From: Trujillonella endophytica
Lineage (GTDB): Bacteria > Actinomycetota > Actinomycetes > Mycobacteriales > Geodermatophilaceae
Direction of reading: 5' to 3'
Assembly (NCBI RefSeq): GCF_900110555.1
Contig: NZ_FOEE01000016.1
Location: 1-64,000 of the forward strand
Length of the DNA: 64,000 nucleotides
Shown: positions 308 through 47,404 of the stretch, in pieces
How the letters are laid out: each line of letters begins with the position of its first letter
Numbering within the stretch: the stretch's first letter is position 1
Notes under the pieces: model-generated
Told to the model about the DNA's origin: nothing
The model's database searches: none
What the model saw: the letters and a program-made list of their open reading frames with translations, nothing else
Program-made: the position numbers and the translations under genes

Positions 308-2374
308 TCACTGGCCCGGCGGGACCTCGACCGAGGTCGCGGTGTCGCCGGGTGCCGTGTCGGCCGGGGTGCCCGCCCCGGCCTCGGCCCGCAGCTCCGC
401 GTCGTGCGCGGCCATGGCCTCCTGCCGGTCGGCCTCCTCCTCGAGGATCGCCGCCCGCTTCCACTCGTGCGGGATGGCGAAGCCGTCGACCAGCGTGACC
501 AGGTGCGGCCGCAGCTCCTTCAGCAGCTGGTTGACCGTGGCGGTCACCGCCTTCGACCGGGCCGGGGTCAGCTGGCCGTGCTCGAGGAACCAGCCCTTGT
601 CCGCCTCGATCGTCGACAGCGCGTACAGGTCGCAGACGGCGTCCAGCAGCGCCTGCGCGTCGGGGTCGGTGGCCCGGTCGACGCCGGCGACGAACGCCTC
701 CAGCACGATCCGGTCGATGTGCGTCTGCGCGGTGCGCAGCACGTGGTCCTGGACGTCGTTGAACATGTCGAACGGCTCCATGCCCTCGACCTCGGCGTTC
801 CTGCGCAGCCGCCGGATCGCACCCTCGAGCGTGTGCTTCTCGCGGAACTCGAACATCTTGAGCTGCCACCCGCGGTCGCGCAGCGGCACCTCCTCGTCCC
901 GCCCGGGCACCGCGTCTATCAGCCGGGCGATCAGGCCGCGGGCCGCCGTCCGCTCCAGGACGGTCTCGCGCACCATGTCGGCGAAGAAGGAGACCTTGCC
1001 CCAGCCGTCCAGCGAGCCGAACGCGTCGCGGTAGCCGGTGAGCAGGCCCTTCGCCACCAGCTGCAGCAGCACCGTGTTGTCGCCCTCGAAGGTGCTGAAG
1101 ACGTCGGTGTCGGCCTTGAGCTGCGGTAGCCGGTTCTCCTGCAGGTACCCGGCCCCGCCGCAGGCCTCCCGGCACATCTGGATGGCGCGGGTCGCGTGCC
1201 AGGTATTGGCCACCTTCAGGCCGGCGGCGCGGGACTCCAGCTCGCGCTGGGCGGCCTCGTCGACCTCCTGCCCGTGCTCGTGCACCGCCGTCTGGACGTC
1301 GTGCATCGTGCCGACCAGTTCCTCCTGGGCGAAGTGCAGGGCGTAGGAGGTGGCCAGCGCCGGCAGCAGCTTGCGCTGGTGCACCAGGTAGTCGTTGACG
1401 ACGATCTCGCGGTCCCGGCCCGGCGCCGTGAACTGGCGGCGCACCTCCCCGTAGCGGACGGCGATGTCGAGGGCCGTCTTCGTGGCCGACCCCGCCGAGC
1501 CGCCGACGCTGACCCGGCCGCGCACCAGCGTGCCGAGCATGGTGAAGAAGCGACGCGTCTCGTTCTCGATCGAGCTCGTGTAGGTGCCGTCGGCGGCGAC
1601 CTGCCCGTACCGGTCCAGCAGCATGTCCCGGGGGACCGCCACGTGGTCGAAGCTCAGCCGGCCGTTGTCGACGCCGAGCAGGCCGGCCTTCGGCCCGTCG
1701 TCGCCGATGGTGACCCCGGGCAGGGGGGCGCCCTCGGCGTCGCGGATCGGCACCAGCCAGGCGTGCACGCCGCGGTTCTCGCCGCCGGTGATCAGCTGCG
1801 CGAAGACGACGGCCATCCGGCCGTCCTTCGCGGCGTTGCCGATGTAGTCCTTGCGCGCGGCCTGGTGCGGGGTGTGCAGGTCGAAGGTCTGCGTCCGCGG
1901 GTCGTACGTGCAGGTCGTGCGCAGCTGCTGGACGTCGGAGCCGTGCCCGGTCTCGGTCATCGCGAAGCTCCCCGGCAGGGCGAAGCTCATGATGTCGCGC
2001 AGGTAGGCGTCGTGGTGCCGCCGGGTGCCCAGCAGCTGCACGGCGCCGCCGAACAGCCCCCACTGGACGCCGGCCTTGACCATCAGCGACAGGTCGCCGA
2101 ACGCCAGCATCTCGATCGACGTCACCGAGCCGCCGGCATCTGCCTCCCCGCCGTATTCCTTGGGGAAGCCCAGGCCCACCCGGCCGGTCGCGGCGAGCTC
2201 GACCGCCAGCCGGGTGATCCGCTCCCGCGCCTCCTGCATCGTCTCGCCGTAGACCGGGGCGAACGTCTCGCCGGCCAGTTGCTCGCGGGCGGCGCGCCGC
2301 ACGTGCGACCAGCGCCCGTCCAGCACCTCCTGCAGGCGCTGCGGGTCGACGCTGCGGGGCAGGGACTGCGTCAC
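308..2374 (-). CDS. acyl-CoA oxidase/dehydrogenase family protein
   Basis: A 688-residue flavoprotein, longer than the ~400 aa of ordinary acyl-CoA dehydrogenases and close to acyl-CoA oxidases. The substrate/FAD-binding stretch FAMTETGHGSDVQ is near residue 140, and the motif TFEGDNTVLLQL near 430 is typical of the oxidase branch. It should catalyse alpha,beta-desaturation of acyl-CoA esters, using either O2 or electron-transfer flavoprotein. The GTG start at 2374 was chosen because it overlaps the TetR stop (GTGA, 2371-2374) and follows GAGGAGGAACA. The frame stays open far upstream, but that part lies over the TetR gene. The C-terminus is acidic and Ala-rich. It probably belongs to the regulon of the adjacent TetR protein. 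Oxidase versus dehydrogenase cannot be decided by eye. Confidence 0.85.
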   Translation of the reverse strand: MTQSLPRSVDPQRLQEVLDGRWSHVRRAAREQLAGETFAPVYGETMQEARERITRLAVELAATGRVGLGFPKEYGGEADAGGSVTSIEMLAFGDLSLMVKAGVQWGLFGGAVQLLGTRRHHDAYLRDIMSFALPGSFAMTETGHGSDVQQLRTTCTYDPRTQTFDLHTPHQAARKDYIGNAAKDGRMAVVFAQLITGGENRGVHAWLVPIRDAEGAPLPGVTIGDDGPKAGLLGVDNGRLSFDHVAVPRDMLLDRYGQVAADGTYTSSIENETRRFFTMLGTLVRGRVSVGGSAGSATKTALDIAVRYGEVRRQFTAPGRDREIVVNDYLVHQRKLLPALATSYALHFAQEELVGTMHDVQTAVHEHGQEVDEAAQRELESRAAGLKVANTWHATRAIQMCREACGGAGYLQENRLPQLKADTDVFSTFEGDNTVLLQLVAKGLLTGYRDAFGSLDGWGKVSFFADMVRETVLERTAARGLIARLIDAVPGRDEEVPLRDRGWQLKMFEFREKHTLEGAIRRLRRNAEVEGMEPFDMFNDVQDHVLRTAQTHIDRIVLEAFVAGVDRATDPDAQALLDAVCDLYALSTIEADKGWFLEHGQLTPARSKAVTATVNQLLKELRPHLVTLVDGFAIPHEWKRAAILEEEADRQEAMAAHDAELRAEAGAGTPADTAPGDTATSVEVPPGQ

Positions 2375-15461: not shown

Positions 15462-15549
15462 GGAGGGCTCGCCTAGTGGCCGATGGCGGCGGTCTTGAAA
15501 ACCGCTAAGAGGTAATCCCTCTTCGTGGGTTCGAATCCCACGCCCTCCG
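15462..15549 (+). tRNA. tRNA-Ser(UGA)
   Basis: The acceptor stem GGAGGGC (15462-15468) pairs with GCCCTCC (15542-15548), with discriminator G. Anticodon loop CTTGAAA gives anticodon TGA. A long class II variable arm (AAGAGG...CCTCTT) and T arm GTGGGTTCGAATCCCAC are present. The CCA end is not encoded. Confidence 0.95.
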
Positions 15550-39524: not shown

Positions 39525-39640
39525 GCCGCGACGGTATCCGCCCGGCGCCACGGTCCGGGGCACCCGCGCGGGTGATCTGTCGCTCGGAAGGCCGTGCGTT
39601 CGGGCAGCCGGATCCCGCGGGCGGTGGCAGCATCGACGGG

Positions 39641-42600
39641 GTGAAGACCTGGCTCGACGCCTGGCCGGTGTTCCGGCAGCTCACCGGTCCCGATCCGCTC
39701 GGCCGGGGCCGGGCCGCGCGCAGCAGGGGGACCGAGGCGGTGGTCAGCCGCACCGCGACCGCCGACCGGGTGGCGGCCAGCGTGTGCCCCTACTGCGCCG
39801 TCGGCTGCGCGCAGAAGGTGTACGTCGAGAACGAGCGGATCACCCAGATCGAGGGCGATCCGGACTCGCCGATCAGCCGCGGCCGGCTGTGCCCCAAGGG
39901 CAGCGCGAGCAAGCAGCTGGTGACCAGCCCGACCCGGGTCACGAAGGTCCGCTACCGCCGTCCGTACGGCACGGAGTGGGAGGACCTGGACCTCGACACG
40001 GCGATGGAGATGATCGCCGACCGCGTGCTGGAGGCGCGGCGCAAGGGGTGGCAGGAGGTCGACGGGCCGCCGGAGAACCGGCACCGCGTCAACCGCACCA
40101 TGGGCGTAGCGAGCCTCGGAGGGGCGACCCTCGACAACGAGGAGAACTACCTCATGAAGAAGCTCTACAGCGCCCTGGGCGCGATCCAGATCGAGAACCA
40201 GGCGCGCATATAGCACTCCTCCACGGTGCCCGGTCTGGGTGCCTCGTTCGGTCGTGGCGGTGCCACGAACTTCCTGGAGGACCTGGCGAACTCCGACTGC
40301 ATCGTCATCGAGGGTTCGAACATGGCCGAGTGCCACCCGGTGGGCTTCCAGTGGGTGATGGAGGCCAAGGCGCGCGGCGCGAAGGTCGTGCACATCGACC
40401 CCCGGTTCACCCGGACCAGCGCGGTCGCCGACCTGCACGTGCCGCTGCGCGTCGGCACCGACATCGCCTTCCTCGGCGGGCTGATCCGCTACGTGCTGGA
40501 CAACGACCTGTACTTCCGCGAGTACGTCGTCGCCTACACCAACGCCGCGGCGATCGTGGGTGAGGAGTTCGTCGACACCGAGGATCTCGGCGGGCTGTTC
40601 TCCGGCTTCGACCCGGAGACCCGCACCTACGACGAGGCGAGCTGGTCCTACGAGCCGAGCGGGCAGGACTCCCGCACCGACGACCCCGGCGAGGCCGCGG
40701 AGCAGGAGCGATCCGAGCAGCACCCCGACGTCAAGCACTCCGACCGGGCACAGGCGGCCGGCAGCGGCGGCCCGCCGATCCCCAGCAAGCCGCACCGCGA
40801 CGAGACCCTCGAGCACCCGCGCACGGTGTTCCAGATCCTCAAGCGGCACTTCGCCCGCTACACCCCGGAGATGGTCGCCGAGGTGTGCGGCATCGAACCC
40901 GAGGTGTTCGAGCAGGTCGCCCGCTGGGTCACCGAGAACAGCAACCGCGACCGGACGACGGCGTGGGTCTACTCGGTCGGCTGGACCCAGCACAGCGTCG
41001 GCGCGCAGTACATCCGCACCGCGTCGATCCTGCAGACCCTGCTGGGCAACATCGGCCGGCCCGGCGGCGGGATCATGGCGCTGCGCGGGCACGCGAGCAT
41101 CCAGGGCTCCACCGACGTCCCGACGCTGTTCAACCTGCTGCCGGGCTACCTGCCGATGCCGCACGCCATGCAGCACCAGACGCTCGACGAGTACTGCGCC
41201 GACGCGGCCGGCAAGGGCGGGTTCTGGGGCAACAAGCGCGCCTACACGGTCAGCCTCCTCAAGGCCTGGTTCGGCGACGCCGCGCAGCCGGAGAACGACT
41301 TCCGGTTCGACTGGATCCCCAAGATCAACGGTGACCACAGCTCCTACCGGACGATCGCCGACATGATCGAGGGGAAGGTGCACGGCTACTTCCTCGTCGG
41401 CGAGAACCCGACCGTCGGGCACCCCAACGGGCGGATGAACCGCTTCGGCCTGGCCAACCTGGACTGGCTCGTCGTCCGCGACCTGCAGATGATCGAGTCG
41501 GCGACCTTCTGGAACGAGTCGCCGGAGATCGAGACCGGGGAGCTCGCGCCGGAGACGATCGGCACCGAGGTGTTCTTCCTACCCGCCGCCTCGCACGTGG
41601 AGAAGGAGGGCACGTTCACCCAGACGCAGCGGCTGCTGCAGTGGCGGCAGAAGGCCGTCGAGCCGCCGGGGGACGCCCGCAGCGACCTGTGGTTCTACTT
41701 CCACCTCGGGCGGATCCTGCGCTCCCGGCTGGCGGACTCGACCGACCCCCGCGACCAGGCGCTGCTGCACATGACCTGGGACTACCCGGTGCACGGGGAG
41801 ACCCGGGACCCCGACGCCGAGGCGGTGCTGCGCGAGATCAACGGCACCGGCCCCGACGGGCGGGCGCTGTCGACCTACGTGGACATGGCCGACGACGGCT
41901 CCACCTCCGGCGGCTGCTGGATCTACACCGGGGTCTTCGCCGACGAGGTCAACCAGGCGGCCCGCCGCACGCCGGCCCGCGAGCCGGGGGCCGTCGCCTC
42001 CGAGTGGGGCTGGGCGTGGCCGCTCAACCGCCGGATGCTCTACAACCGCGCGTCGGCCGATCCCGAGGGCAGGCCGTGGAGCGAGCGGAAGAAGTACGTG
42101 TACTGGGACTCCGCCGCCGGGGAGTGGACCGGCGCGGACGTGCCGGACGTCGAGAGGACCAAGCGGCCGGACTACGTGCCGCCGGAGGGCGCCAGCGCGC
42201 AGGACGCGCTGGCCGGCACCGATCCGTTCGTCATGCAGGGCGACGGCAAGGCGTGGTTGTACGCGCCGGCCGGGCTGGTCGACGGGCCGCTGCCGACGCA
42301 CTACGAGCCGGTGGAGTCCGTCGTCGAGAACGCCCTCTACGCCCAGCAGGCGAGCCCGACGGTGGAGCGCATCGAGGGGCCGTGGAACCGGGAGAACCCG
42401 TCGATGAGCGAGGTCTTCCCGTTCCAGGTGACCACCTACCGGCTGACCGAGCACCACACCGCCGGCGGGATGAGCCGCACGCTGCCCTACCTGGCGGAGC
42501 TGCAGCCGGAGTTCTTCGTCGAGGTCAGCCCGGAGCTGGCCGCGCTGCGCGGGCTGACCCACGGCGACTACGCGACGCTGGTCAGCACCCGGACGGCGAT

Positions 42601-42940
42601 CGAGGCGAAGGTGCTGGTCACCGAGCGGGTCCGGCCGATCCGGCTGCGCGGCGGGCAGGTCGTGCACCAGATCGGCATGCCCTACCACTGGGCCTACAGC
42701 GGGCTGTCCACCGGCGACTCGGCCAACGACCTGCTGGGGATCGCGCTCGACGCGAACACCCACATCCAGGAGGACAAGGTCAGCACCGCCGACATCGTCC
42801 CCGGCCGGCGCCCGCGCGGGCCGGAACTGCTGGAGTTCGTGGAGTCCTACCGGCGGCGGGCCGGCGTGGGCTCGGGGCGGGTCGGGGTGAACGGCCGCGC
42901 GCCGGTCGCGGAGGGGGACGGCGATGATCAGGTCACCTGA
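39641..42940 (+). CDS. fdhA: formate dehydrogenase catalytic subunit, selenoprotein with UAG-encoded Sec
   Basis: A 1099-residue molybdopterin/tungsten formate dehydrogenase. Translation must read through an in-frame TAG at 40211-40213 (residue 191): ENQARI-[TAG]-HSSTVPGLGASFGRG, exactly where FDH-N/O-type enzymes have selenocysteine or cysteine. Both sides are in the same frame and fully conserved-looking. The 4Fe-4S ligands are Cys49, 52, 56 and 84 (CPYCAVGC ... LCPKG). A SECIS-like hairpin follows the TAG (40225-40243). The GTG start (VKTWLDAWPVFRQLTG) matches the family start. No twin-arginine signal is seen, so the subunit may face the cytoplasm. It oxidises formate to CO2 and passes electrons to FdhB. 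A hydrophilic insert lies near 345-390. Confidence 0.93.
40211..40213 (+). other. in-frame UAG predicted to encode selenocysteine
   Basis: The TAG replaces the catalytic Sec/Cys codon between ENQARI and HSSTV. All three codon bases lie in the frame shared by both halves of fdhA, with no frameshift, and the downstream 2.7 kb has no other stop. UAG for Sec (with a CUA-anticodon tRNA-Sec) has been reported in Geodermatophilaceae. The selC, selA and selB genes are not in this window. Confidence 0.88.
40225..40243 (+). promoter_or_regulatory. bacterial SECIS-like hairpin in fdhA mRNA
   Basis: GGTGCCC (40225-40231), loop GGTCT (40232-40236), GGGTGCC (40237-40243): 7 bp including two G-T pairs. Counting the T of TAG as 1, the loop has G22 G23 U24 C25 U26 and there is a U at 17. 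The same bases occupy the same positions as the bulged U17 and G23/U24 recognised by SelB in the E. coli fdhF SECIS. Confidence 0.85.
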
Positions 42941-43072
42941 TCCCGGCGCTACCTCCCTCACGGTGCGCGGCGAGGGAGGACGCGCTGCGGTGAGGGAGGA
43001 CGGCGCCCGGTGCGACGGCGCCCCGTGGCGCGGCGCCACGAGCGGGACCACGACCCCGGGAGGGAGGCCGGC

Positions 43073-44083
43073 ATGACCTCGATCAGCTCGGCGAGCCCGG
43101 CCTTCACCGGCAAGGACCCGCACAACCGCCTCTTCGGCCCGCTGCCCGACGTCACGGCCGAGGCCGGCTACGACGAGGACCACCCGGCGCGCGTCGGGTT
43201 CTTCACCGACACCTCGGTGTGCATCGGCTGCAAGGCCTGCGAGGTCGCCTGCAAGGAGTGGAACACGCTCCCGATGGACGACTCGCACGGCACCCGCGAC
43301 GTCATCGGCCTGTCGGGGATGTCCTACGACAACACCGGCCAGCTGGGCGCGAACAGCTGGCGGCACGTGGCCTTCATCGAGCAGGTGCGCACGGTCGACC
43401 TGCCGATGCCTACCGTCGGGCGGCCCGGCGACGACCCCCGGGGCAGCGTGCTCAACGCCGAGGCGCTCACCGAGTTCGACCCGCAGACCGGGCAGAGCGG
43501 CACCGACAAGCAGGTCCGCTGGCTGATGTCGTCGGACGTCTGCAAGCACTGCACGCACGCCGGCTGCCTCGACGTCTGCCCGACCGGAGCGCTCTTCCGC
43601 TCCGAGTTCGGCACGGTCGTCGTCCAGGGCGACATCTGCAACGGTTGCGGCTACTGCGTCTCCGCCTGCCCGTACGGCGTGATCAACCGCCGGGAGGACG
43701 ACGGCCGGGTCTTCAAGTGCACGATGTGCTACGACCGGCTCACCGACGGGCTGATGCCGGCCTGCGCCACCGCCTGCCCCACCCAGTCGATCCAGTTCGG
43801 CGACCTCGACGAGCTCCAGGCCCGCGCCGACGCCCGCCTGGCCACGCTCAAGGAGCAGGGCGTGGAGACCGCGCGGCTCTACGGCCGGGACGAGGACGAC
43901 GGGGTCGGCGGCAACGGCGCCTTCTTCCTGCTGCTCGACGAGCCCGAGGTGTACGGCCTGCCCCCGGATCCGGTCGTGACCACCCGCGACCTGCCGGCGA
44001 TGTGGAAGGCCGCGGGCAAGGCGGCGCTGATGATCGTGGGTGTCGCCGCGACCGCGGTGTTCGGCTCGAGGCGCCCCCGATGA
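43073..44083 (+). CDS. fdhB: formate dehydrogenase iron-sulfur subunit
   Basis: A 336-residue electron-transfer subunit with four cysteine clusters for 4Fe-4S centres: CIGCKACEVAC, CKHCTHAGCLDVCP, CNGCGYCVSACPYG, and CTMCYDRL with CATACP. Near the C-terminus is a single hydrophobic segment (AALMIVGVAATAVFG) like the FdnH membrane helix. ATG 43073 follows AGGGAGG. The preceding 132-bp gap, holding a GAGGGAGGA direct repeat, contains no gene. It conducts electrons from FdhA to the NrfD anchor. Confidence 0.93.
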   Translation: MTSISSASPAFTGKDPHNRLFGPLPDVTAEAGYDEDHPARVGFFTDTSVCIGCKACEVACKEWNTLPMDDSHGTRDVIGLSGMSYDNTGQLGANSWRHVAFIEQVRTVDLPMPTVGRPGDDPRGSVLNAEALTEFDPQTGQSGTDKQVRWLMSSDVCKHCTHAGCLDVCPTGALFRSEFGTVVVQGDICNGCGYCVSACPYGVINRREDDGRVFKCTMCYDRLTDGLMPACATACPTQSIQFGDLDELQARADARLATLKEQGVETARLYGRDEDDGVGGNGAFFLLLDEPEVYGLPPDPVVTTRDLPAMWKAAGKAALMIVGVAATAVFGSRRPR

Positions 44084-44132
44084 CGGAGCGGGTGTGCACT
44101 TCCGCGGACGTGCACGAAGGGGAGGGGGCGCG

Positions 44133-45173
44133 GTGACCGAGGGGATCGCGACCCCGGGAGGCGGCTGGCGGCGGGCCGACGGCGGTCAGGCCGCGCAGCC
44201 CCGGACGAAGCGCCGCAAGGGTGGACGGCGGGGCGGCCGCGGCGAGATCGCCATGGTGGACGACGTCGAGTTCACCTCCTACTACGGGCGGCCGATCCTC
44301 AAGGCCCCGGTGTGGAAGTCCCCCGACGTCCCGCTGTACCTGTTCCTCGGCGGCGCGGCGGGGTCGTCGTCCATCCTGGCGGCCCTGGCCGACGTCACCG
44401 GGCGCCCGGCGCTCACCCGGGTGGGCCGCTACGTCTCCGGCGGCGGCGCGCTGGCCTCGGTCGTCTTCCTCATCCACGACCTCGGCCGCCCGGCGCGGTT
44501 CCTGCACATGCTGCGGGTGTTCAAGCCGACCTCGCCGCTGTCGGTGGGCACCTACATCCTCGCGCCGTTCAGCGCCGCGGCCTCGACGACCGCGGCCGTG
44601 GAGCTGCTGGGGTGGTTCCCGGGGCTGAAGCGCTTCGGCGGGGTGGTGGCCGCGCTGTTCGGCGGGCCGCTGGCGACCTACACCGGCGTCCTGCTGGCCA
44701 ACACCGCCGTCCCGACCTGGCACGCGGCGCACACCCAGCTACCGTTCGTGTTCGGGGCCTCGGGCATGGCGGCCGGCGGCGGCCTCTGCATGGTGTTCAC
44801 CCCGCTCGCCGAGTCCGAGCCGGCTCGGCGGATGGCGATCGCGGGAGCGGCGATCGAACTGGCCGTCGTCCGCCGGGTGGAGGGCAGCGACTCGATCGTC
44901 GCCGAGCCCTACCACCTGGGCCGGCCGGGCGTGCTGATGCGGGCGGCCAGGGCGTGCACCGCCTCGGGGCTGGGGCTGGCCCTGCTGGGCGGCCGCACCC
45001 GTGCCGGCGCCGTCGGCTCGGGGCTGCTGCTGGCGGCGGGCTCGCTGCTGACCCGGTTCGGCGTCTTCGAGGCGGGTGTGGCCAGCGCGAAGGACCCGAA
45101 GTACGTCGTCGTCCCGCAGCGGGAGCGGTTGGCGGCGCGGGCGCACGAGCACGCCTCGACGATCACCCGCTGA
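44133..45173 (+). CDS. NrfD-type membrane subunit of formate dehydrogenase
   Basis: A 346-residue protein. A ~60-residue basic cytoplasmic start (RTKRRKGGRRGGRGE) is followed by about eight hydrophobic helices of the NrfD/PsrC family (LYLFLGGAAGSSSILAAL, FLIHDLGRPARFLHMLRVFK, GVLLANTAVPTWHAAHTQLP). NrfD subunits anchor such complexes and hand electrons to menaquinone without haem. It completes the fdhABC-like operon. The GTG start follows GGGGAGGGGG. Confidence 0.88.
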   Translation: MTEGIATPGGGWRRADGGQAAQPRTKRRKGGRRGGRGEIAMVDDVEFTSYYGRPILKAPVWKSPDVPLYLFLGGAAGSSSILAALADVTGRPALTRVGRYVSGGGALASVVFLIHDLGRPARFLHMLRVFKPTSPLSVGTYILAPFSAAASTTAAVELLGWFPGLKRFGGVVAALFGGPLATYTGVLLANTAVPTWHAAHTQLPFVFGASGMAAGGGLCMVFTPLAESEPARRMAIAGAAIELAVVRRVEGSDSIVAEPYHLGRPGVLMRAARACTASGLGLALLGGRTRAGAVGSGLLLAAGSLLTRFGVFEAGVASAKDPKYVVVPQRERLAARAHEHASTITR

Positions 45174-45233: not shown

Positions 45234-46214
45234 TCAGGCGACCCCGCCGAGCTCCGCGACGTCGGTGTCCACCATCGCCTCGACCATCTCCCGGAAGCCG
45301 ACCGTCGGCGCCCAGCCGAGCAACTCCCGCAGCCGGGTGGCGTCGCCGGTGAGCACGGCCGAGTCGGTGGGGCGCAGCAGCGCTGCGTCGGAGCTGACGT
45401 AGCGCTCCCAGTCGTCGATGCCGACCCGCGCGAACGCGGCCGCGACGAGGTCGGTGAGGCTGTGCGCCTCGCCGGTGGCGACGACGTAGTCGCGGGGCTC
45501 GTCGGCCTCCGCGGCCAGCAGCATCGCCCGGGTGTAGTCCGGCGCCCAGCCCCAGTCGCGGCAGACGTCGAGGTTGCCCAGCGTCAGGTCCCCCGCGCGG
45601 CCGGCGGCGATGGCCGCGACGCCGGCGGTGATGCGTCGGGTGACGAATCGGTGCGGACGCCGGGGTGACTCGTGGTTCAGCAGGATCAGCGAGCTGCAGT
45701 GCACTCCCTGCGTCCGGTACATGCCCACCATCTGGTGGCCCAGGGCCTTCGCGGCGCCGTACGGGTTGACCGGGCTCACCGGCGTGGTCTCGTCGATCGT
45801 GCCCCCGCCACCGGCGAAGCTCTCGCCGCTGGAGGCCTGGATGAACCGGATGGGGCGCTCGCCGCGGTTCTGCCGTCCGCGCAGGTACTCCAGGACGCCG
45901 ATCACCGGCCGCGCGTTGGTGTCGAACGTCGTCATCGGGTCGGTCCAGGAGGCCGCGACGCTCGACAGCCCGCCCAGGTTGAACAGCCAGTCCGGGGCGA
46001 CGTCGTCGATCACGCGGACGAGCGCGGTGACGTCGCGCAGGTCGGCGCGGTGCAGCCGCAGCCGCGAGCCGACGGCGGCCAGGTGCGGCAGCTCCCCGGC
46101 ACGCGAGAGCTCGCCGCGGCAGACGCCGTGCACCTCGTGACCGGCAGCGACGAGCTGCTCGACCAGATAGCCGCCGTCCTGACCGGTCACGCCGGTCACC
46201 AGGGCGGTGCCCAC
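45234..46214 (-). CDS. GDP-mannose dehydratase-like SDR (paralog)
   Basis: A 326-residue extended SDR with cofactor motif [12 protein letters not shown], active-site IQASSGESF and YGAAK, and the substrate-side LNHESPRRPHRFVTRRI that mirrors GMD. It is a paralog of the gene just upstream, but its mid-part (SSVAASWTDPMTTFDTNARP) differs from true GMD. It may be a second GDP-4-keto sugar enzyme or a GMD isoform. The GTG start gives TALVTGVTG; the gap to the preceding gmd is 17 bp. Activity is unproven. Confidence 0.8.
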   Translation of the reverse strand: MGTALVTGVTGQDGGYLVEQLVAAGHEVHGVCRGELSRAGELPHLAAVGSRLRLHRADLRDVTALVRVIDDVAPDWLFNLGGLSSVAASWTDPMTTFDTNARPVIGVLEYLRGRQNRGERPIRFIQASSGESFAGGGGTIDETTPVSPVNPYGAAKALGHQMVGMYRTQGVHCSSLILLNHESPRRPHRFVTRRITAGVAAIAAGRAGDLTLGNLDVCRDWGWAPDYTRAMLLAAEADEPRDYVVATGEAHSLTDLVAAAFARVGIDDWERYVSSDAALLRPTDSAVLTGDATRLRELLGWAPTVGFREMVEAMVDTDVAELGGVA

Positions 46215-46231
46215 GTCAGTCCGCCCCCACG

Positions 46232-47212
<981 letters not shown>

Positions 47213-47404
47213 GCGGCACCTTCCGTCGATCGGCGCACGTCCGGCCGTGCGTCCCGAGGAGACTAGTGGGACAGGACGTGCACTCCCGCCCTCGGGCGGG
47301 GCCCGACACCCATCAGAGCGACGTGGCGCACGTCTCGCGTGGGTATCGTGCGAGGTCGCGCGACCGCAGCCGGCGTCCACTGGTACTCGGGGGTTCCCTC
47401 GCCG

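Follow-up and report, generated by a model that had tools for sequence, protein, structure and literature searches.

A UAG codon predicted to encode selenocysteine in the formate dehydrogenase of Trujillonella endophytica, and a relative that appears to carry two selenocysteine codons

We analyzed a stretch of 64,000 nucleotides of Trujillonella endophytica (positions 1 to 64,000 of contig NZ_FOEE01000016.1, hereafter the window), in which a gene for formate dehydrogenase, fdhA, is cut in two by a standard ORF search. The gene and its neighbors are arranged as follows.

39641..40210, forward strand: fdhA, part 5′ of the Sec codon (frame open from 39572; start taken as GTG 39641)
40211..40213, forward strand: TAG, putative Sec codon, residue 191 counting from GTG 39641
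40214..42940, forward strand: fdhA, part 3′ of the Sec codon
40225..40243, forward strand: candidate SECIS hairpin, GGTGCCC-GGTCT-GGGTGCC, 7 pairs (two of them G-U), loop GGTCT
43010..44083, forward strand: ORF for the beta (iron-sulfur) subunit of formate dehydrogenase; TIGR01582 FDH-beta matches best, at 180.2 bits, under the cut-off of 334.7
44040..45173, forward strand: NrfD-like membrane-anchor ORF; weak match to TIGR03148 nrfD, E 1.1e-4, far under the cut-off

Two plasmids with sel clusters show the same succession of genes (fdh, 4Fe-4S, nrfD) in their annotation. Two adjoining ORFs on the reverse strand of the window (45234-47380) resemble tandem sugar-nucleotide dehydratases by eye, the first of which matches gmd under its cut-off.

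An earlier reading of the window, made from the sequence only, had claimed that fdhA is split by an in-frame TAG at the catalytic Sec site, and the two halves indeed share one frame. The site reads ENQARI-TAG-HSSTVPGLG, with the TAG in frame with the ORFs at 39572-40213 and 40226-42940. When the TAG was read through, FdhA scored 1891.1 bits against NF041513 (formate_DH_Act), for which the curated cut-off is 1400. The numbering of Sec as codon 191 holds when GTG 39641 is the start.

The sequence-only reading further proposed that the codon is decoded by a tRNA-Sec with a CUA anticodon, a proposal that it would give up if SelB or tRNA-Sec were absent. Both are present in the genome, as are selA and selD. 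The genes are clustered on a contig other than that of the window (locus L009), in the order selB (−), selA (−), selC (−), selD (+), and each enzyme scored above its NCBIfam cut-off.

G000:C20:270064-270155, reverse strand: tRNA-Sec (selC), anticodon CTA (CUA), 64.2 bits against RF01852, cut-off 47
L009 6943-8688, reverse strand: selB, TIGR00475, 268.4 bits, above cut-off
L009 8699-10009, reverse strand: selA, TIGR00474, 420.9 bits, above cut-off
L009 10995-12002, forward strand: selD, TIGR00476, 381.6 bits, above cut-off

The sole other match above the Rfam cut-off was the tRNA-Ser(UGA) at 15462 of the window. ARAGORN labels the CUA tRNA of this genome tRNA-Pyl, a label that would suit a UAG that codes for pyrrolysine or is decoded by a general amber suppressor. 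We regard this as extremely improbable: the tRNA exceeds the tRNA-Sec cut-off of RF01852 by the margin listed above, is located in the sel cluster and, apart from its anticodon arm, is similar to the tRNA-Sec(UCA) of sister genera, and the codon itself stands at the UGA-Sec position of FdhA from outside the family.

We read the Sec codon in 118 fdhA loci, 38 from genome searches and 80 named, some genomes being in both sets. It was TAG in 76 of 76 loci of the Geodermatophilaceae (38 from the family search and 38 named) and TGA in 42 of 42 others. The named TAG loci come from Blastococcus, Geodermatophilus, Modestobacter, Klenkia, Goekera and one MAG titled Frankiales; the TGA loci bear titles outside the family (Amycolatopsis, Kibdelosporangium, Actinomycetospora, Nocardioides, Micromonospora and others), a few being MAGs named to order or class. 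An order-wide search gave TGA in every fdhA match from outside the family, among the matches listed. At E 1e-100, fdhA was found in 100 of the 112 family genomes and in none of the seven with tRNA-Sec(UCA) only, so that the codon comparison takes in no UCA-only genome.

Seven family fdhA loci, from among copies with extra TGA or TAG stops, were re-read. TAG was found at residue 214 in six of them, within a near-full alignment in L331, L332, L333, L236 and L064 and a partial one in L335; the extra stops inside alignments lie at residue 23 (L064, L335) and residue 1116 (L331). In the copy L334 (G080:C12:811500-816500), the Sec codon and the SECIS stretch are missing or scrambled, through decay or an assembly fault, and G080:C4 holds a second partial copy (residues 225-978) with one TAG. 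A lone in-frame stop in the window would look alike if it were a sequencing error, the true base giving TGA or TGC, or if fdhA were a pseudogene, and the G080:C12 copy without its Sec stretch speaks for such an origin. However, the same TAG recurs in all 76 family loci across many assemblies and is matched by the tRNA anticodon, and we give error or decay almost no credence.

The 7-bp hairpin with loop GGTCT that had been noticed after the TAG was found at 40225-40243, where folding predicts it as the structure of minimum energy. With the T of TAG as position 1, its U17, G23 and U24 agree with the positions claimed for E. coli fdhF, given the spacing that we take that element to have from its Sec codon. 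The 17-base sequence of the E. coli element is printed in the accessible part of PMC3834832. The fold energy of the window hairpin was not better than that of dinucleotide shuffles (z 0.51; 135 of 200 folded at least as well), and hairpin energy was rejected as evidence, both for this element and for one in a second genome described below (z 0.04). Since its fold energy is ordinary, the hairpin by itself is unconvincing; what does convince is conservation together with the changes at pair 18-30.

Across the 118 fdhA loci, TAG and TGA alike, T17, G23 and T24 are invariant, T24 being a wobble base that never varies. All 76 TAG loci have GGT as codon 22-24, as do 40 of 42 TGA loci, the remaining two having AGT; in crudely called ORFs of this genome, GGT makes up 9% of glycine codons. 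The 118 loci include some genomes twice and contain 34 distinct TAG elements and 31 distinct TGA elements. Pair 18-30, which links two synonymous sites of different codons, covaries: the TAG elements have CG 13, GU 13, GC 6 and UA 2 with no mispair, and the TGA elements CG 16, UA 7, UG 7 and GU 1. The number of paired cells and the covariation score were each reached by none of 500 shuffles in either set, a control that related sequences can exceed. The number of pairs changed on both sides was reached by 36 of 500 shuffles (TAG) and 218 of 500 (TGA), and further pair types among the TAG elements by 46 of 500. The outermost pair, 15-33, is evidently dispensable, being broken in 17 of the 31 TGA elements. 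Folding the mRNA and comparing the SECIS of relatives, both suggested as checks on the sequence-only reading, thus yielded a minimum-energy hairpin with invariant loop positions and a covarying pair. The conserved SECIS directly 3′ of the codon that bacterial Sec insertion calls for is seen here in that covariation and those loop positions.

The hairpin also bears on the possibility that FdhA ends at the TAG and a second protein restarts at GTG 40226, which does open an ORF with 12 bases separating it from the TAG. This we consider very unlikely. The GTG is the valine codon of the SECIS, and GTC or GTT, neither a listed start, takes its place in 21 of the 76 TAG loci; moreover, the split would lose the catalytic residue and deprive tRNA-Sec(CUA) of its one known client in this genome.

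UAG continues to end genes. By crude ORF calls, 12 of the 39 ORFs in the window end in TAG, one being the 5′ half of fdhA; with two neighboring stretches added (n = 61), the stops are TGA 43, TAG 14 (one of them that of fdhA) and TAA 4. Two loci had been cited beforehand as window genes ending in TAG, of which the 18-kb example stood and the 15-kb example did not, since the called ORFs there end in TGA. As UAG is still a normal stop, the SECIS must tell the two meanings apart, and the stop usage supports the earlier claim that context has to separate UAG-stop from UAG-Sec.

Other UAG selenoproteins, which the same reading had suggested looking for, were found in relatives. The UGSC family (NF041046) gave 94 matches in 54 of the 112 family genomes; counted by hand, 72 have one TAG, 22 have no stop and none has TGA. 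Where the TAG was read, it fell on the U of UGSC (22 of 22 loci), and loci without a stop have TGC at that position (8 of 8 read). Copies with and without TAG lie side by side in some family genomes, with up to four copies per genome (L288-L295, L296-L317). In the UCA-only genomes G067 and G073, the UGSC-family copies encode Cys and are not interrupted by a stop. AhpC-type genes gave 50 matches in nine genomes; TAG is present in two of these matches (from G007 and G008), each time at the U of UPYC. A UAG AhpC is reported for B. saxobsidens DD2 in the accessible part of PMC5330540, a report that the AhpC-type TAG of G007 and G008 (the latter being B. saxobsidens DSM 44509) fits. In the T. endophytica genome, UGSC, AhpC-type and SECIS-model searches gave no second UAG selenoprotein: its UGSC copy is CGSC, TAG is present in 0 of 5 AhpC-type copies, and SECIS model R1 has fdhA as its only strong match (74.2 bits), the remainder, at most 19.9 bits with E of at least 0.17, being taken as chance (150 of 12660 candidates scored). 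Within this genome alone, therefore, the case for UAG-Sec rests on one gene, fdhA.

The sequences themselves show that codon, hairpin, tRNA and the enzymes SelA, SelB and SelD are present, and that they occur together within the family. With its SECIS and a tRNA-Sec(CUA) in the genome, the UAG of fdhA is almost certainly read as selenocysteine; the proposed decoding by a CUA-anticodon tRNA-Sec is supported by selC(CUA), the sel genes and the SECIS of relatives. Charging, delivery and competition we infer by analogy with E. coli. SerRS would charge tRNA-Sec(CUA), and SelA would turn the Ser into Sec using selenophosphate from SelD. SelB would hold the SECIS, whose hairpin starts 11 bases downstream of the UAG, and bring Sec-tRNA to the ribosome at that codon, for which release factor 1 would compete. 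A UAG without a SECIS would be an ordinary gene end. According to the accessible part of PMC3834832, UAG with tRNA-Sec(CUA), the SECIS and SelB gives about the same selenoprotein activity in E. coli as UGA with the UCA anticodon.

To place the anticodon in its family, we searched 112 family genomes for tRNA-Sec, counting a match at E 1e-9 and scoring 34 candidates per genome, a number at which weak extra copies could be missed. A match was obtained in 108 genomes, the four without one being 72-82% complete. The 110 distinct selC (111 loci, one tRNA occurring twice) comprise 102 with CUA and 8 with UCA. By genome, 101 have CUA (G037 with two copies) and seven have UCA only, namely G067, G069 and G070 (genus g6), G071 (g7) and G073-G075 (g8); G059, among the 101, has both. 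All 102 tRNA-Sec(CUA) genes are called tRNA-Pyl by ARAGORN, an annotation trap. The seven contigs around selC of the UCA-only genomes (L336-L342, from G071, G074, G073, G075, G067, G070 and G069) gave no fdhA match and no recognized UGA-Sec gene; SelA was found on four, SelB on four and SelD on two, and a scan for TGA-interrupted ORFs returned mostly wrong-frame noise. In about a hundred genomes of the family the Sec codon and the anticodon correspond, and the older anticodon survives in some sister genera; it becomes possible in this way to test in what order the steps of a natural codon switch took place.

A SelA tree was built from 48 rows, two of 50 (L015, L016) having been removed because their genomes were represented already. 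The 41 CUA rows are set apart by one branch (100/100), the four UCA rows from the family form a group (99/95), and three UCA sequences from plasmids lie outside (89/85), in a tree with long outgroup branches and a midpoint root. The bodies of CUA and UCA family tRNAs are very similar. Tree and tRNA bodies fit one switch from UGA to UAG inside the family, and the tRNAs fit a switch made of the anticodon change UCA to CUA (two changes) and the change of one anticodon-stem pair from U-A to C-G.

The genome with both anticodons, G059 (Geodermatophilus sp. LHW52908), has TAG in fdhA and UGSC and a single selA/selB/selD set that adjoins selC(CUA) (L072). Elsewhere it carries the following pair.

L071 = G059:C17:1-20000, positions 1169-1263, reverse strand: orphan tRNA-Sec(UCA), 81.8 bits
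G059:C17 1579-2157, forward strand: AhpD-like ORF, TGA at 1870 = codon 98, within RCFYxMESH

The two are divergent and 315 bases apart. The orphan tRNA, whose sequence is considerably divergent, folds well and is recognized as tRNA-Sec, and a promoter-like site ends seven bases before it. GC is 0.59-0.65 in the first 6 kb after the tRNA versus 0.69-0.77 further on. It is 83-84% identical to the tRNA-Sec(UCA) of two plasmid sel clusters. Four of its six plasmid matches were examined, and all four are tRNA-Sec(UCA); three of these plasmids are annotated with selA, selB and selD beside the tRNA, and the fourth is without annotation there. The TGA of the AhpD-like ORF sits at the CxxU site of AhpD-like selenoproteins, and the ORF scored 51.8 bits against NF041238 (AhpD_rel_CFYUT), under the cut-off of 175.

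We lean toward a history in which the Sec codon moved from UGA to UAG once and G059 has since regained UGA through a mobile AhpD-like gene with its own tRNA-Sec(UCA). Since a UGA-Sec gene in a UAG-Sec host would work only with its tRNA, the gene would have come with it. G059 would then write Sec with two stop codons through one SelA/SelB/SelD set; SelA, SelB and SelD had no match on the 69-kb contig C17. Somewhat less probably, G059 uses UAG alone; the AhpD-like TGA would then be a plain stop or a mark of decay, and the tRNA-Sec(UCA) either a passenger that is silent or an artefact of the assembly. The pair occurs in a single genome and amid transposase genes (six of the eight ORFs tested around the tRNA have transposase-type domains). 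The hairpin after the TGA had an energy no better than that of shuffles, 98 of 200 being as good. For the AhpD-like protein (P0002), the 394 genomes sampled from the class yielded no close relative, viral contigs and phages yielded none, and the 333 plasmid records all fall below 60% identity. A 6-kb piece of C17 could be aligned from end to end with six genus mates, at 80-81%, and in part with the others, by which the contig is taken as native; the piece lies about 47 kb from the tRNA. Against the use of UAG alone, the frame stays open for 94 codons beyond the TGA, and TIGR01926 matches across it (residues 51-189) at 112.6 bits, the cut-off being 81.8. The residue aligned with the TGA is Cys (TGC) in five of five family homologues, and the tRNA folds well, is recognized as tRNA-Sec and has its promoter-like site. 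G059 thus appears, from the sequence of one assembly, to use two Sec codons. If they are functional, one SelB serves both, and the genome would show that a single cell can acquire a second codon for an amino acid by horizontal transfer and that a gene may have to move together with its tRNA.

Reading of UAG as Sec in the Geodermatophilaceae has been published, and the mechanism in the window is the known one. Labelling with 75Se by Mukai et al. in 2016 reportedly confirmed UAG-programmed synthesis in Geodermatophilus and Blastococcus. The earlier statement that UAG-Sec had been described in this family agrees with the accessible part of PMC5330540, where the UAG-Sec genes are FDH, UGSC and AhpC; tRNA-Sec(CUA), the UAG in FDH and the family are common to that report and ours. 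Three genomes are treated there, compared with 112 here, which include another species, UCA-only relatives and one genome with both anticodons. New in our work are the SelA tree that fits one switch and the two codes that G059 appears to carry.

E. coli FdhF, which uses UGA, shares with the window the Sec site, the SECIS directly downstream, the loop GGUCU and U17, G23 and U24. The window stem has seven pairs with U17 paired, in contrast to the E. coli element, in which U17 is presumably bulged, and with UAG as the codon RF1 would compete in place of RF2. Compared with actinobacterial UGA-Sec formate dehydrogenase (NF041513), the protein family, the SECIS plan and the loop are the same, and the differences lie in the Sec codon and in a small number of stem pairs. 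The window adds a clean case of context-dependent stop-codon recoding.

For G059, the nearest known systems are the CxxU AhpD-like selenoproteins, a family tabulated in the accessible part of PMC13188914. Its TGA gene belongs with them by family (TIGR01926) and by its CxxU site; unlike them, it is neighbored by an orphan tRNA-Sec(UCA) of its own, in a host that uses UAG for Sec. Titles and abstract openings among the literature matches listed contain no description of a bacterium with two Sec codons. Multiple tRNA-Sec genes per genome have precedent in the eight bacterial genomes that, in the accessible part of PMC5330540, have an extra tRNA-Sec copy bearing compensating changes; that part makes no mention of different anticodons in one genome, whereas G059 has them.
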